A stretch of 64,000 bases of DNA from Leeia speluncae (lineage in GTDB: Bacteria > Pseudomonadota > Gammaproteobacteria > Burkholderiales > Leeiaceae): contig NZ_JAJBZT010000001.1 of assembly GCF_020564625.1 (NCBI RefSeq), positions 434,001 through 498,000 on the forward strand. Direction: 5' to 3'. The translations under genes and the position numbers were made by a program. Below the pieces are notes generated by a model that saw only the letters and a program-made list of their open reading frames with translations, did no database searches and was not told the DNA's origin. Below are positions 3,113-33,443 of this stretch, piece after piece; the first letter of the stretch is position 1; the number at the start of each line of letters is the position of its first letter.

Positions 3113-3129
3113 TCTACGATTTACGTAGA
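3113..3129. promoter_or_regulatory. Operator O1 of the hipA locus
   Basis: TCTACG (3113-3118), spacer ATTTA, CGTAGA (3124-3129): a perfect inverted repeat. A matching site, O2, lies 33 bp away centre to centre, about three helical turns. Both lie in the intergenic space between the divergent hipA operon and the Xre gene. This is the expected position for autorepression by the 105-aa Xre protein. Confidence 0.7.
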
Positions 3130-3144
3130 GATTTGCTGTGACAA

Positions 3145-3163
3145 TTCTACGACTATCGTAGAA
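3145..3163. promoter_or_regulatory. Operator O2 of the hipA locus, overlapping the repressor start codon
   Basis: TTCTACG (3145-3151), spacer ACTAT, CGTAGAA (3157-3163). It has the same TCTACG-N5-CGTAGA core as O1, and its last base is the A of the repressor ATG. Binding here would block initiation of the repressor's own transcript. There is no Shine-Dalgarno sequence before the ATG, so that transcript may be leaderless. Confidence 0.7.
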
Positions 3164-3480
3164 TGAGCGCAAATTCCAAATCGAATGTAATAGGGCGACG
3201 CCTCCGTGAGGCTCGCAAAATGGCTGGCTTACCCCAAGACCGTCTAGGTGTCTTGGTTGGTCTAGATGAACATACGGCCAGTGCAAGGATTTCCAGATAT
3301 GAAACAGGCGTACACGAGCCAAACTTTGAAATGGCAGAAAAACTAGCTGGCATTCTGGGGGTGCCAGTCATCTACTTTTATTGTGAAGATGACGAACTGG
3401 CAAGCTTGGTAAAAGCGTGGGAGAAGTTGACCGATAGTGATAGAGCTAAATTTCTAACGGAACTACAACGAAGTACATGA
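3163..3480 (+). CDS. Xre-family repressor of the hipA locus
   Basis: A 105-aa protein with a Cro/C1-type helix-turn-helix at residues 8-65 (RLREARKMAGLPQDRLG ... ARISRYETG ... LAGILGVP), followed by a short acidic C-terminal tail ending LTELQRST. HipA partners of the HipB type have the same fold, but here the gene is divergent from hipA instead of leading the operon. Two perfect operators lie directly upstream and one touches the start codon, which supports autoregulation. An alternative is a general phage-type repressor; the shared promoter region makes the hipA partnership more likely. Confidence 0.8.
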   Translation: MSANSKSNVIGRRLREARKMAGLPQDRLGVLVGLDEHTASARISRYETGVHEPNFEMAEKLAGILGVPVIYFYCEDDELASLVKAWEKLTDSDRAKFLTELQRST

Positions 3481-16387: not shown

Positions 16388-16609
16388 ATCATGATGGCCA
16401 CTCTAAAATAATTCGTCTAAATTCCCCCAATATTATGATGTATCGGTTGTACTTAGAGTTCACCCTGAGAGATCACCGTTGATGGCTCTGCTATAAAAGT
16501 ATTCGCATCATGAAAAGAGATCATACTCTCGTTGAGTATTCCTCTTGATGCATTAATTCGTTCACTTTGTGCTTCATGCCTCAGAGATGAGTCAAGGTTA
16601 AGCCAAGCA

Positions 16610-16656
16610 ACCCGGGCAACGAGATTGTTGCCCGGGTCTGAGTGGTAATTTTTTCC
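16610..16656 (+). terminator. GC-rich terminator-like hairpin at the edge of the hairpin-dense region
   Basis: ACCCGGGCAAC (16610-16620), loop GAGATT, GTTGCCCGGGT (16627-16637): an 11-bp perfect stem, with a T6 run 12 nt further on (TAATTTTTTCC). It either stops transcription from the left or marks the outer border of the structured region that follows. Confidence 0.6.
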
Positions 16657-16689
16657 TTTCAAATTTTTCCTGTCTTGCTACCTAACCGG

Positions 16690-17790
16690 CCAAGGTCAGG
16701 CATTCATTTTACTAGCGGCCAAGCTGGTAAAATGGCACATACAAACAACGGGCTGCCAAGCCCAACCACACACTTCGCAAATCGCTCCCACCTTTCGGGA
16801 CACGGTACCTCCGTGCCGCTGCAATTGCAGCTCCCCATACGTTTCGGTCGTATCACGCATGAGTCAAACCCTACTCAGTTAGTCTCCCCCTCTCACTATC
16901 AGTCTGCACGGTGCCACCCGATGCTGTCAGTGAGAGGTTCCCACGTTAGTGACTAGTTACTGCGCAACATAGCGCCACTGTCTCCGCATTCCCCTAGTCT
17001 TTCGACTCCCCGTAGGTTTCCCCGGCGCGATGTTCCAAAGCCGCTCAGGTACTCAGTTCATGCTTCATCGACTACGAACCACGGCTTCATGCCTATGGCT
17101 CTACGTTGCTCCGCACAGCACCCTCTTTGGGGGCCGTTACAGGTTTGAGCTATCCATCGACCCCTGATTTCTCAAGGTGCCAGCTGCGCTAGGTTTCCCC
17201 TTGCAGCCCTGCCGTGTTGCCACGGCCTCAGAAGCCATCCTGTGCGGTACGGGTTGCGCCCTTCCGGTACGCCCCCCGAGTCGGCCTTGCACCGACTTTC
17301 ACATGGTCACAGGTCACAAGGCCATTTCCTGCCTAGTGCCGTTTCCGTGTCGCCCAACATACATTGTTAGCTAAAAAATACGACGTATTTTGATTGGGTC
17401 GAAGACGGGAGTTACACCCGCCAGCGCCCAGCGTAGCCGCACCAGCCCTATTAGAGGCATGCGGCTTCAGCGATTGCTCGATTCCAGATTGGCGATCTGG
17501 AGTCTTCCGGGGTGGCGCCCCGACTGGTCCTTTCGGACGTGTGTGTTTGCAGTTGGCAGCCTGCTTTATAAGTCCTCTCTCATACTTCGAAGACTCATAA
17601 AACAGACTGCCGTGCATGCAATCCTCTCGGGCTTCCCCGAGTGCATCTCTAAATTTTGACTGTCCTGAATATGTATAGCGTCAAAATTCCCATGCTGCGC
17701 ATGGAACATCAATTAGTGTGACTTCGTCACACAAAATCACACTACAACAATCAGGCTTTTAGCCTGATTACTGCATTACATCCTGCTTCA
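16690..17790. ncRNA. Candidate large structured non-coding RNA region upstream of the 272-aa gene
   Basis: About 1.1 kb, visibly G+C-richer than its surroundings, with no credible protein gene. Hairpins are dense: 16705-16734 (12 bp with one G-U in the plus RNA), 16801-16816 (CACGG..CCGTG), 16819-16832 (GCTGCAATTGCAGC), 16889-16937 (CCTCTCACT with AGTGAGAGG), 17279-17297, the CCAGAT..ATCTGG pair near 17485, 17527-17538 (GTCC-TTTC-GGAC), 17627-17642 (CTCGGG-CTTC-CCCGAG), a long pair AATTTTGAC / GTCAAAATT near 17652-17688, CCATGC..GCATGG near 17690-17704, 17717-17733 (GTGTGAC-TTC-GTCACAC) and 17749-17769 (AATCAGGCT-TTT-AGCCTGATT). Read on the minus strand, at least two loops are GAAA tetraloops (17531-17534 and 17000-17003), which favours a minus-strand RNA; the G-U pair favours plus. 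Strand, ends and function are not settled. Confidence 0.45.
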
Positions 17791-17833
17791 TTTGCCTATA
17801 CATCAATACCTAATACAAATTAAGAGTTACATC

Positions 17834-18652
17834 ATGACCGTTGCTAAGTCACTCTCATTACCTATCGCTCGCTCAAAAACAGCAGCGCTCGCTCGCGTTA
17901 TCGACCTGGTTGCCAAGGGATACCATTTTTACTTCTCAGGTCAGTGCCCGGCGGAGCGCCTGCTAACACTCGTTCGCAAACTCCATGAAAAATACGGAGT
18001 TGCATGCTCTCCTGCGCAGCGGTTGATACGAAAACAGCAGGGAAGGGCGAATGCTGCACTGGTGATATTTCTACCAACAGAGAGGATGCTCCTACAGCAG
18101 CCTAATGATGATATATCTGCAGCTACAGAGAACAACTCCCTGGCCAGCATGGATGACAATCCGTCATCCACAAAAGGCACCAACGTAGCAATCTCTGGTG
18201 AGGCGTCTTTAGCATCTAAACGCATGCTGGAAAGTGTGCTGGCTCAGGTGGATGGCAAGCGCCGAATCGAGTGGTTATTGCTGGCTACCAATGGCGCTGG
18301 ATTGGTACATGAAGAGGAGCAACTGCGCGATGTAAAAGGTAAACACCGGCTCATCTTCTGTGGATATGAATTGGTGCGGCACACGACGCGCGGCAAGGCT
18401 GCTTGGACGTTCCGGCGAACTCGAGAGGAGATGACTGACTGGTACACCTTATTGGGTGACCAACTGCGTCGGCAAAGGATGGCGGAAGTGGCGAAGGCGT
18501 TGCAATGTATCGCCCATCAACCTGGGTTCGCCGGTGTGCGTGAGCAAAGTTCGCGCCTATTCGATTTTGCTATTCAGCGCGGCTATCGGAAAGAGGTTCC
18601 TTTTTTGTTCTTCGTTCAGAAGCTCTCACACGGGGATAGGGTGCTTATTTAG
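17834..18652 (+). CDS. Unrecognised 272-aa protein paired with the structured region
   Basis: I cannot assign this to a named family. The start at 17834 (MTVAKSLSLPIARSKTAALA) is preferred to a TTG 42 nt upstream. Three parts are visible: a basic N-terminal domain (1-85; helical, with KLHEKYGVACSPAQRLIRKQ), a polar Ser/Asn/Thr-rich linker (about 93-130), and a C-terminal domain (about 135-272) with RRIEWLLLATNGAGLVHEEE, CGYELVRHTTRGKAAWTFRR, QPGFAGVREQSSRLFDFA and VQKLSHGDRVLI. These read as strongly conserved-type motifs and not as decay. It lies between the hairpin-dense region and a 15-bp hairpin, next to an integrase, so it travels with an island. A nucleic-acid-binding role is inferred from the basic N-terminus and context only. 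Confidence 0.7.
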   Translation: MTVAKSLSLPIARSKTAALARVIDLVAKGYHFYFSGQCPAERLLTLVRKLHEKYGVACSPAQRLIRKQQGRANAALVIFLPTERMLLQQPNDDISAATENNSLASMDDNPSSTKGTNVAISGEASLASKRMLESVLAQVDGKRRIEWLLLATNGAGLVHEEEQLRDVKGKHRLIFCGYELVRHTTRGKAAWTFRRTREEMTDWYTLLGDQLRRQRMAEVAKALQCIAHQPGFAGVREQSSRLFDFAIQRGYRKEVPFLFFVQKLSHGDRVLI

Positions 18653-18678
18653 GGGCGGCAATTAAGGTAAGCAATAGA

Positions 18679-18713
18679 CTAAGCCGAGCTATCTGTTAGA
18701 TAGCTCGGCTTAG
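18679..18713. terminator. 15-bp hairpin closing the 272-aa gene
   Basis: CTAAGCCGAGCTATC (18679-18693), loop TGTTA, GATAGCTCGGCTTAG (18699-18713). The stem is perfect and lies between this gene and the convergent integrase gene. No T-run follows on either side, so it is terminator-like but not classical. Confidence 0.65.
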
Positions 18714-18784: not shown

Positions 18785-20203
18785 TCAGATTGTTCTTTCA
18801 AATGTATCTTCTGAAAGAATTTCATTGATACGATTACCTAACAAATTCCATGCCTCCGATTTTTCTTTCGAATAGTCATGGTGTAGATAATGTCGACGCA
18901 CCTTTGAACCAGTAATTATGTGGTTTTGACATCTATCGATGACATCGAGACTTACTCCAAGCGCTTGCATCATAGTCGCTCCTGTCCGACGCAAATCGTG
19001 TGGAGTCCATTCACCGTTAGCTCCTCTGGATAAAACAAGAGAATTATCAAAAGCGCGTGCCTTGAGTGGTGAATTGCGATTTTTGAAGCAAATTTGTCTA
19101 TCACCGACCTGCTTGCTTACCGTCTTTAGGCAAACATGTGTCGTAACGCCGACAGTATTTTTTGCTGGAAAACACCACTCTCCAGAACCTGTTAACTTAT
19201 GCAACTCGGCAAACTGGTGACGTGCAAAGTTGGAGAGAAATATATAGTGTTCATGTTTCTTGCCCCTTACGCCTTTCACATTTTCTCTAGGTATAAACCA
19301 AACACCGGTCTCAAGATTAACGTGCTCCCAGCGGGCCATTAGTAATTCGCCTATGCGACATAGCGTACCTAGACTAATCCAGAGCGCAAAGCGCGTTTTT
19401 TTGTCTACGGGGCGAGTTGCCAACCGCTTATTTGGAGCACCTTCATAGGCTGAGTCCATTTTCTTGAAAATCTCAGCAAGCTCCCGAATTTCAGCGCCTG
19501 ATAAGACTCTATCACGCTCTTCTTCGTACTCTTCGGGTAATAATTTGCGTATCTCAACAAGGTCACATGGGTTTCCGTCGGTCAGTAATGGCCGCCATGG
19601 TTTACGTTTTTCTGCCCATGCCATCATTTGACTGATGTCTGTAAATGTGGAAACTGCTAAACGCACCACTCCCCGTCCCATTTGTTTCCTAAGAACAGAA
19701 AGAATATCGCTGTGCTGTAATTCACCAAGTACTATCTGACCGATTTGCGGGAGAACATCCTTGGCAAATCGACGACGCAATTCAGCATTACCGTCTTTTC
19801 TTGCAACACCGTCCACAATCCATGAGTTAAACAAATCCTCAACAGTTAAAGAGGCAACTCGCTCTTGCTCGGCTTTGGCGATAGTCGCGGCAACAGCTGC
19901 CTGAGCTTCAATACTCTGAGCTTTTTTGGCTGCGTTTAAATTAATTCCCTGCTGCGCAATGGGTTTTAACCGGTCCCGCTCAACACGTATATCCGCGAGG
20001 CTCTTTTTTGGCCAGGCACCGAGGCGGCAGTCCATCTTTTTACCGCCTTGCGAGTACTCATAGCGGAAAAGAACAGAAATTCCCCGTGTTCCTGCCCGAA
20101 CTTTGCCAACTAGCCCGCCAACCTCGCGAAGGACTCGACCATCATCTGCATCGGATAGGTTCTCAAGTTGCTTAACTGTAATCTTAGAACTATTTTGCCC
20201 CAT
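18785..20203 (-). CDS. int: P4-like tyrosine recombinase (island integrase)
   Basis: A 472-aa site-specific recombinase. The N-terminal DUF4102-like arm-binding domain (LFRYEYSQGGKKMDCRLGAW, SLADIRVERDRLKPIAQQG), the core-binding domain (about 118-215) and the catalytic domain are in order. The residues seen are Arg283 (CRIGELLMARW), the HxxR pair His402/Arg405 (HDLRRTGATMMQ), His428 and the probable nucleophile Tyr439 (RRHYLHHDY). It appears intact. Its start codon lies 143 bp from the tRNA-Pro 3' half at 20347-20391, the usual int-att arrangement for elements that integrate into tRNA 3' ends. It probably catalysed integration of the element to its left. Confidence 0.92.
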   Translation of the reverse strand: MGQNSSKITVKQLENLSDADDGRVLREVGGLVGKVRAGTRGISVLFRYEYSQGGKKMDCRLGAWPKKSLADIRVERDRLKPIAQQGINLNAAKKAQSIEAQAAVAATIAKAEQERVASLTVEDLFNSWIVDGVARKDGNAELRRRFAKDVLPQIGQIVLGELQHSDILSVLRKQMGRGVVRLAVSTFTDISQMMAWAEKRKPWRPLLTDGNPCDLVEIRKLLPEEYEEERDRVLSGAEIRELAEIFKKMDSAYEGAPNKRLATRPVDKKTRFALWISLGTLCRIGELLMARWEHVNLETGVWFIPRENVKGVRGKKHEHYIFLSNFARHQFAELHKLTGSGEWCFPAKNTVGVTTHVCLKTVSKQVGDRQICFKNRNSPLKARAFDNSLVLSRGANGEWTPHDLRRTGATMMQALGVSLDVIDRCQNHIITGSKVRRHYLHHDYSKEKSEAWNLLGNRINEILSEDTFERTI

Positions 20204-20346: not shown

Positions 20347-20391
20347 ATGGGGTGCAAGGGGTAGGAGGTTCGAATCCTCTCGCTCCGACCA
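20347..20391 (+). other. Attachment-site scar: 3' half of tRNA-Pro (anticodon GGG)
   Basis: The segment begins ATGGGGTGCAAG (anticodon loop with GGG and the 3' anticodon stem), continues through GGAGGTTCGAATCCTCT (T arm) and ends CGCTCCGACCA (acceptor strand, discriminator A, CCA). The matching 5' half (expected acceptor CGGAGCG) is not present to the left, where island DNA starts. This is what remains on the distal side when an element inserts into the tRNA and rebuilds it at its other end. The intact tRNA should lie beyond the left edge of the window. Confidence 0.85.
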
Positions 20392-20408
20392 ATAGTTTCA
20401 AATAATCA

Positions 20409-32505: not shown

Positions 32506-33129
32506 ATGCAGGAAATGTCTTCTGCCGAGCTGCCATGCATTAAGGTGCTGGGGCTGGGTAATCTGTTGTGGGCGGACGAGGGCTTTGGCGTGCGGGTGGC
32601 CGAGCAATTGTTTGGCCGCTATCAATTGCCGCCATCGGTTGAGGTGATCGATGGGGGGACGCAAGGTTTGCTTTTACTACCGTATGTAGAAGCCGCCGAT
32701 AAACTCATTATTTTAGATGCCATCGATTTTGGTTTGCAGCCGGGTGAGTTGCGGGTGTTTTGTAACGAGGCAGTGCCAGCCTATTTAACTGCTAAAAAAA
32801 TGAGCCTGCACCAGACGGGGTTTTCTGAAGTGCTGGGGCTGGCCGAGCTAAAGGGCAATTATCCAGAGGAAGTGGTGCTAATCGGGGTGCAACCCGTCGT
32901 GCTAGAAGATTATGGTGGTAGTTTGTCTGATCCGGTACGCGCGCAAGTTGCGCCGGCGTTAGCCTTGGCTGAGCGGCAATTAACGGAATGGGGCGTTGTG
33001 CTGAGCCCGCGCCAAGATGAAGACCGATTGAACGACGATAGTTTATCGATGACACGTTATGAGGCCGAGCGACCATCAGAAGAAGTGGCATGTCGTGTTG
33101 GCGATGCACGAGTGTGGGGAGGTGTGTGA
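32506..33129 (+). CDS. hupD: Hydrogenase maturation endopeptidase HupD
   Basis: A 207-aa member of the HyaD/HybD peptidase family that removes the C-terminal extension of HupL once nickel is bound. Nickel-recognising residues sit in LWADEGFGVRVA (Glu), LDAIDFG (Asp) and SLHQTGF (His). The last ~45 residues (from about 160) exceed the usual family length and are charged and low in complexity. It overlaps hupF by TGATG. It is the first gene of the accessory operon. Confidence 0.95.
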   Translation: MQEMSSAELPCIKVLGLGNLLWADEGFGVRVAEQLFGRYQLPPSVEVIDGGTQGLLLLPYVEAADKLIILDAIDFGLQPGELRVFCNEAVPAYLTAKKMSLHQTGFSEVLGLAELKGNYPEEVVLIGVQPVVLEDYGGSLSDPVRAQVAPALALAERQLTEWGVVLSPRQDEDRLNDDSLSMTRYEAERPSEEVACRVGDARVWGGV

Positions 33130-33443
33130 TGTGTTTGGGCGTACCCATGCAAGTGTTGGAATCGAACGGATTTGTTGCCCTATGTGCGGATGATTCTGGC
33201 GTCAGTGCCGTGGATGTCTCTCTCGTGGGGGAGGTGAGTGAAGGCGAGTGGCTACTAGTGTTTACCGGCGCTGCGCGAGAGCGCTTGTCTGAAGCGCGCG
33301 CTCTGGATATTCGCGATGCGCTCTCTGCGCTGACGGCTGCTTTAAACGGGGATTTTGACCCAAATGCCCATTTCCAAGATTTAATCAATAGAGAACCAAG
33401 TTTGCCACCGCATTTGCAAGCCTTGGTCAAGAAGGAGGCCTGA
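33129..33443 (+). CDS. hupF: HupF, HypC-family hydrogenase chaperone
   Basis: A 104-aa paralogue of HypC that starts MCLGVPMQV, with the N-terminal Cys2 that contacts the large-subunit precursor or the Fe(CN)2CO carrier. In rhizobia HupF protects HupL maturation under oxygen. The start at 33129 is set by the MC motif; the open frame upstream overlaps hupD. It carries a C-terminal extension relative to the 79-aa HypC encoded at 40234. Confidence 0.92.
   Translation: MCLGVPMQVLESNGFVALCADDSGVSAVDVSLVGEVSEGEWLLVFTGAARERLSEARALDIRDALSALTAALNGDFDPNAHFQDLINREPSLPPHLQALVKKEA

Follow-up and report, generated by a model that had tools for sequence, protein, structure and literature searches.

A 900-nt circularly permuted (CP) group II RNA has been described from plasmids of Thermus and of proteobacteria, pPNAP05 being one of them (Roth et al., 2021; PMC8637638). 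Its domain 5 (D5) is described as carrying an AGC and a U-N bulge with five base pairs between them. According to the accessible parts of the same paper, AcpG, the protein encoded beside such RNAs, has no homology to any known protein class, many CP group II RNAs have no acpG nearby, and the roles of the ribozyme and of AcpG are left open. Among openly licensed PMC papers, no later one on the function of CP group II RNAs or AcpG was found. Large catalytic RNAs have rarely been discovered of late, and CP group II ribozymes are one of these few.

Here we analyze a locus of Leeia speluncae within a window, i.e., the whole stretch of 64,000 nucleotides that was studied. Judged by sequence, the minus-strand RNA at about 17564-16689 is a CP group II ribozyme, an already known class, and the protein encoded beside it is AcpG, a homologue of the protein encoded next to such RNAs. 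As a whole, the locus is probably best explained as a CP group II ribozyme gene with a divergent acpG, whose product would be a maturase-like partner of the RNA, both serving the element that carries them. What is new here is the predicted reverse transcriptase (RT)/maturase fold of AcpG and the plasmid distribution of the pair.

Results

A structured RNA on the minus strand

Between 16690 and 17833, the ORF list of the window contains short ORFs and no credible gene, and three of these ORFs had no convincing match in Pfam, PHROG, or NCBIfam (best NCBIfam E-value 0.21). This agrees with the original prediction, made from the letters alone, which had also seen that the region is richer in G+C than its surroundings. 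In 500-base steps, its G+C content is 0.47-0.57, compared with mostly 0.39-0.47 on the left and 0.39-0.53 on the right, the top value of which is that of the protein gene. No Rfam family matched at gathering scores anywhere in the 64-kb window, and over 16500-17900 there were chance matches only, at E-values up to 5. The segment 16689-17564 folds with -361.5 kcal/mol on the minus strand (z -5.5) and with -322.3 kcal/mol on the plus strand (z -4.4), none of 20 shuffles being as good in either case, and D5 and domain 6 (D6) appear unaided in the minimum-energy structure predicted for the minus strand.

For the analysis of covariation, 95 D5-D6 segments, minus one broken by an insertion sequence (L019) and five repeats, left 89 distinct rows, in which the pairs were picked by eye. 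Cells are paired in 96.8% of cases versus 76.8% in shuffles, double-change cells number 401 versus 107, and the covariation score is 0.583 versus 0.183, each of these values being reached in 0 of 500 shuffles; slid controls are paired to 41-47%. Two of the five covariation measures are weak, with 5 and 21 of 500 shuffles as high. The helices of D6 are paired to 99.8% and 99.1%, part of the 3' side being fixed by the pattern with which the rows were found. Because this pattern fixed the 3' side of helix 2 and demanded GGGCGAC, part of the conservation of helix 2 was built in, unlike that of helices 1 and 3. Covariation, by which the proposed structured RNA was to be judged, is strong in D5-D6, the part examined.

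Read on the minus strand, D5-D6 of the 89 sequences contain 219 G-U versus 27 A-C cells, 88 of the 219 being supplied by one nearly invariant U-G pair, and because of this bias the RNA is assigned to the minus strand, as GAAA tetraloops had suggested in the original prediction. Since the structured unit lies on the minus strand with its 5' end facing acpG, it is divergent from this gene and not its leader. Hairpins named earlier, at 17749-17769, at 16609-16637 (GC-rich), and behind acpG (15 bp), are all present on reading the sequence, but that at 17749-17769, formerly taken for the last of the structured region, lies outside the unit. GC-rich non-coding DNA does form hairpins, and the plus strand, too, folds better than its shuffles, so that the hairpins might have arisen by chance or belong to a structured leader of the mRNA for the protein; this explanation is refuted, retaining practically no probability, by the D5-D6 covariation, the G-U bias, the opposite orientation of RNA and acpG at all listed loci that hold both, and the occurrence of the RNA alone on small plasmids. 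A large structured RNA, as originally proposed, is upheld by its fold, by covariation, and by homology.

Features of a CP group II ribozyme

The D5-D6 model R1 gives the window copy, itself part of the model, a score of 93.5 bits. The conserved RNA opens with D5 and D6. Next come two splice-site-like segments, reversed in order and separated by a short linker, and then a long structured remainder; conserved sequence continues for about 660 nt 3' of D6, where D1-D4 would lie. The window copy shows the spacing of AGC and U-N bulge in D5, the bulged A in D6, and the reversed splice-site-like segments (Table 1), which in similar form were demanded by the search pattern for other loci itself. For the putative pseudoknots P1-3' end and P2-D2, complementary words are present, and 61 of 87 loci have TTGGC at a distance of 600-900 nt, compared with 31 for one control word.

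Table 1. Features of the locus, in positions of the window
Feature	Positions	Strand	Basis or remark
CP group II RNA	16689..17564	minus	Homology to plasmid and chromosomal copies, D5-D6 match, fold, positions of elements; putative edges at the P1-like hairpin (5') and at the CUUGGC word complementary to the P1 loop (3')
P1-like hairpin, GCAGGCUGCCAACUGC	17549..17564	minus	Sequence
P2-like hairpin, CCAGAUCGCCAAUCUGG	17484..17500	minus	Sequence; also drawn in the minimum-energy fold
D5	17435..17466	minus	AGC (17466-17464) and U-N bulge (17444-17443) separated by five base pairs
D6, bulged A at 17399	17396..17429	minus	Directly 3' of D5
3'-splice-site-like end CAAUC	17392..17396	minus	
36-nt linker between the two splice-site-like segments	17356..17391	minus	
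5'-splice-site-like start GGGCG (17355-17351) and beginning of D1	17345..17355	minus	
acpG, 272-aa protein	17834..18652	plus	Predicted RT/maturase-like fold
15-bp hairpin separating acpG from the integrase gene, perhaps a terminator for both directions	18679..18713		Sequence
P4-like tyrosine integrase of the island	18785..20203	minus	
Displaced 3' half of tRNA-Pro	20347..20394	plus	

By the published biochemistry of its relatives, the transcript would back-splice itself, giving a branched RNA along with a small circle, and the linker would correspond to the segment released in circular form from the relatives (PMC8637638). A first reading of the region as a new replicon, as well as the idea of an unknown RNA class, were dropped on the map of pMtBL and on PMC8637638.

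DNA searches with the region recovered pieces of 65-81% identity in nine plasmids of α-, β-, and γ-proteobacteria, pPNAP05 among them, and a hypothetical protein is encoded in the vicinity in every case. Aligned upstream regions share an element of about 800 nt, with 74% identity over 759 bp between Halomonas and Azotobacter. Copies outside the model were found by R1 in Thermus (E-values 5.8e-8 and 3.2e-6), in Acinetobacter (3.4e-13), in the congener G002 (1.4e-19), which has its own copy elsewhere, and on four small RNA-only plasmids; a third genome, G001, gave no DNA match to the region. Thiothrix unzii pTunz1 carries two D5-D6 copies (L020:17672-17756 and 33063-33147), and on Pandoraea pPO70-4 an IS256-family element splits the RNA in D5 (L019:20950-22474). 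Thirteen Acinetobacter plasmids match part of the RNA, and a divergent pair from this genus has a D5-D6 match at L164:1205-1293 beside a 330-aa AcpG relative at 1634-2626.

The RNA and acpG occur together

A motif of the RNA alone, searched in one genome per species (84,980 species), occurs in at least 80 stretches. AcpG is encoded (E-values up to 0.01) at 65 of the 80 listed loci found in this way, always on the strand opposite to the RNA (65/65), on its 5' side, i.e., divergently, in 62 cases and on its 3' side in 3. The 15 listed loci without acpG belong, by title, to 12 genomes, 10 of which hold AcpG elsewhere, in part perhaps just beyond the stored stretch. Because RNAs without nearby acpG are also described in the accessible parts of PMC8637638, the link between the two seems to be tighter at the level of the genome than at that of the locus. 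On plasmids, a D5-D6 match accompanies 17 of 21 AcpG genes, and R1 found none on the other four (L015, L017, L018, and L022). The expectation that homologues of the protein would come with the RNA therefore stands for most plasmids and fails for these four, whereas the proposal that RNA and protein travel as a pair on mobile DNA is well borne out by the 65 loci. On pMtBL, both lie on one strand. The RNA is also present on some plasmids that lack AcpG, and in Novacetimonas C110 the two halves are on two plasmids. A metagenome-assembled genome labelled Oscillospiraceae holds the pair (L033, L084), so that it may occur outside proteobacteria and Thermus, misbinning being possible.

At the Leeia locus, the P4-like integrase that had been recognized earlier belongs to the tyrosine recombinases and contains an arm DNA-binding domain. 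The tRNA-Pro repeat behind it is exact over 31 bp (20364-20394) and extends to 48 bp with one mismatch, and the intact tRNA-Pro gene lies 59 kb away at contig positions 395332-395408. The region between the two is a candidate island of about 59 kb, and owing to the 3'-half repeat and the intact gene, the RNA/acpG pair would close this island at its integrase end. The genome holds a single AcpG.

The predicted fold of AcpG resembles that of group II intron maturases

The predicted length of 272 aa was correct, and sequence searches of Pfam, NCBIfam, PHROG, and the PDB assigned the protein to no family; a match to PHROG 6298 (E-value 0.034) was taken as chance. Single-sequence protein patterns run over the genome contigs were too narrow and found no relative. 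Protein searches with two different relatives as queries gave 31 and 24 plasmid records, respectively, from proteobacteria, Thermus, and one uncultured record. The window protein forms one family with proteins of Thermus and Polaromonas plasmids and with the 65 RNA-linked proteins. After removal of the fragments L035, L090, and L101 and of the duplicate-looking L039, 61 of the latter were aligned with the window protein. In these 62 members, E162 is the sole invariant residue, no conserved catalytic Asp pair exists, and position D166 is Asp in 39.

AlphaFold models, which share one alignment, reached a pLDDT of 86.3 for the window protein and of 91.0 for L034, which is 29% identical to it. Of the PDB chains, the four ranked highest against the window model are all protein components of group II intron complexes: 8t2r_D (Z 8.7; 173 residues, 5.4 Å), 6me0_C (Z 8.3; 176 residues, 3.7 Å), 8t2s_D (Z 8.3), and 8fli_B (Z 8.2; 178 residues, 3.4 Å). 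For L034, the best are 8t2s_D (8.8; 184 residues, 3.9 Å), 6me0_C (8.8), and 7k9y_A (8.7), and further intron RTs, DRT9, Prp8 (4i43_B, 6.5), retron RTs, and telomerase follow at lower scores. Chain A of 5lj3 (Z 7.4), which we take to be Prp8, also matches L034. Values of 8-9 only slightly exceed the 7-8 commonly obtained with models that have no clear relatives, and the unrelated matches of L034, two designed proteins at 8.4 and 7.9 included, are mostly helical proteins covering only the thumb helices. Foldseek placed 8t2r_D first and the G2L4 RT second for L034, neither significantly, and gave no match below an E-value of 0.001 for either model; a viral structure library likewise contained none below 0.001. 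HUH, LAGLIDADG, and other nuclease folds are absent among the structure matches listed, which excludes nothing.

In a comparison with a profile of 25 intron proteins, the GYELVR..WTWR segment of AcpG and the helices following it align with FLGF (RT7) and the thumb. The C-terminal half scores 27.3 (E-value 0.0075, HH-suite probability 5%), and one of 100 column shuffles reached 27.1, the next 21.6. Against 14 intron proteins the score is 25.1, with at most 17.5 for ten other neighbour families and at most 19.4 for 30 column shuffles. There is, hence, moderate support for AcpG sharing the predicted fold of group II intron RT/maturases, and the structural comparison foreseen in the original prediction has given a best resemblance to these proteins. 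Because this fold and profile evidence coincides with a group II ribozyme as partner, AcpG is quite likely a reduced, inactive maturase. As a shortened, catalytically dead relative of RT/maturases, it would act as folding or splicing partner of the ribozyme in the way of intron-encoded proteins. The binding of the RNA by the protein, part of the original prediction, is putative.

Carriers of the pair

All plasmids found with the two protein queries (31/31 and 24/24) are typed as without relaxase (non-mobilizable), as are 33 of 34 RNA-bearing plasmids, one RNA-matching plasmid being typed mobilizable; for comparison, 444 (8.9%) of the best 5000 VirB4-bearing plasmids are so typed. The relaxase families PF03432, PF08751, and PF03389, to which the search was confined, are each missing from 19 records (0/19), E. 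coli L016 being outside the 19. A gene for a type IV coupling protein (T4CP; TraG-D_C) is present on 4 of these records and gave no match on the other 15. The RNA lies between the T4CP gene and acpG in Paraburkholderia, Gluconacetobacter, and Pandoraea, and in E. coli L016 acpG, a T4CP-like gene whose product is without Pfam match, and virB11 are consecutive. The neighbours of the 80 listed chromosomal loci (117 ORFs, those below 130 or above 1100 aa left out) include VirB11-type ATPases (6), integrases (5), KfrA (5), and T4CPs (4), 25 of 66 families being among the matches listed.

Among 5426 E. coli genomes, 21 carry the RNA on 22 plasmid records. Seven of these plasmids measure 2.9-3.1 kb and lack acpG, whereas the remaining 15, of 27-35 kb, have both and coincide with the set of 15 acpG carriers; strain FHI_NMBU_11 harbours a small and a large one. 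The gene list of one large carrier shows genes of a type IV secretion system (T4SS), and those of three small ones show RepL and no acpG. Similarity between small and large plasmids stops with the RNA, over about 705-716 bp at 96% identity. Novacetimonas hansenii C110 has the two on separate plasmids, with the RNA gene located on pKHC110_1 and acpG on pKHC110_2.

These distributions suggest, as a bold reading that is less likely than not, that RNA and AcpG form a transfer module replacing oriT and relaxase on elements that use a T4SS, with the RNA or its folded single-stranded gene acting in cis and AcpG in trans. The small E. coli plasmids and the Novacetimonas pair would fit a cis-acting element, and the relaxase typing and the neighbouring T4CP and VirB11 genes would fit the module as a whole. 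However, T4SS-bearing carriers in the set represent about three lineages; a VirB4 gene is found in Paraburkholderia, Pandoraea, Gluconacetobacter, and E. coli, i.e., in few lineages, and the small and the Thermus plasmids show no T4SS in their annotation. By analogy, the division between RNA-only and RNA/acpG plasmids would behave like oriT and its trans factors, but equally like an antidote or any other cis-acting element.

An antidote-like RNA would indeed account for RNA-only plasmids, and defence is listed as a possibility in the accessible parts of PMC8637638. Defence or plasmid addiction, with a ribozyme that attacks or guards nucleic acids and AcpG as its partner, nevertheless seems unlikely; the motif has no match in 2.9 million viral contigs, which neither supports nor excludes this role.

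Control of replication or copy number, with the RNA as an origin or its regulator, had been one of the options named earlier, and many carriers are small plasmids, pMtBL among them. On this plasmid of Pseudoalteromonas TAC125, however, D5-D6 are at 3117-3198, apart from the mapped OriR at 1918-2759 (PMC10033558). The carriers hold varied Rep genes (TrfA, RepL, RepB, and RepC), and pTT8 is reported to replicate when most of the ribozyme is missing (PMC8637638), possibly with help from a chromosomal copy. A replication function is therefore very improbable. The pMtBL copy outside OriR (L012:3117-3198) lies on a plasmid that is a source of vectors, and no mention of a CP group II RNA was seen in the accessible parts of PMC10033558 and PMC6848147.

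Discussion

A putative ribonucleoprotein of the minus-strand ribozyme and AcpG would serve its carrier plasmid or island, transfer being held the likeliest step. The RNA might instead be a passenger that renders no service to its carrier and is kept by spread alone; for this speak the selfishness of canonical group II introns and the fact that the reaction of CP group II RNAs yields no product that obviously reinserts (PMC8637638). Against a passenger speaks the strong conservation of structure and linked gene across α-, β-, and γ-proteobacteria and Thermus, so that this reading is rather improbable. If service to the carrier takes the form of conjugation without relaxase, ribozyme and dead RT-fold protein might prepare or escort plasmid DNA for the type IV channel, with the ribozyme gene as the cis element kept by satellite plasmids, a mechanism that we consider possible at best. 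A pair serving transfer would constitute an RNA-based way to move plasmids, and the E. coli plasmids make ideas on maturase and transfer testable in laboratory strains.

With the published CP group II RNA, the window copy shares the size near 900 nt, D5-D6 at the front, AGC and U-N bulge five pairs apart, the bulged A of D6, the reversed splice-site-like segments with their short linker, carriers that are plasmids as well as chromosomes, and an adjoining acpG. No difference is seen in these features, and this copy would presumably be catalytic like its relatives. AcpG of Thermus thermophilus, TTHC007, is likewise a protein of about 260 aa encoded beside and divergently from the RNA; the likeness is one of description and of a family that includes Thermus plasmid proteins. 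As published, TTHC007 is without known homology, whereas the window AcpG has a predicted fold like that of group II intron RTs.

With the RT/maturases of group II introns, AcpG has in common the predicted palm-thumb fold, the profile alignment over RT7 and thumb, and a group II ribozyme as partner. In contrast to them, it is shorter, lacks the conserved catalytic Asp pair and a significant sequence match in Pfam, and is encoded beside the RNA on the other strand and not inside the intron RNA. Should AcpG be a stripped-down intron protein, the ribozyme would have lost retromobility and yet retained a protein partner, in much the same manner as the spliceosome with Prp8. Compared with pairs of oriT and relaxase, the AcpG system differs in having no known relaxase domain, in using a ribozyme gene as cis element, and in that its transfer is putative; it resembles them in the small plasmids with the cis element only beside larger ones holding the trans gene, and in the vicinity of RNA and acpG to genes for T4CP and VirB11.
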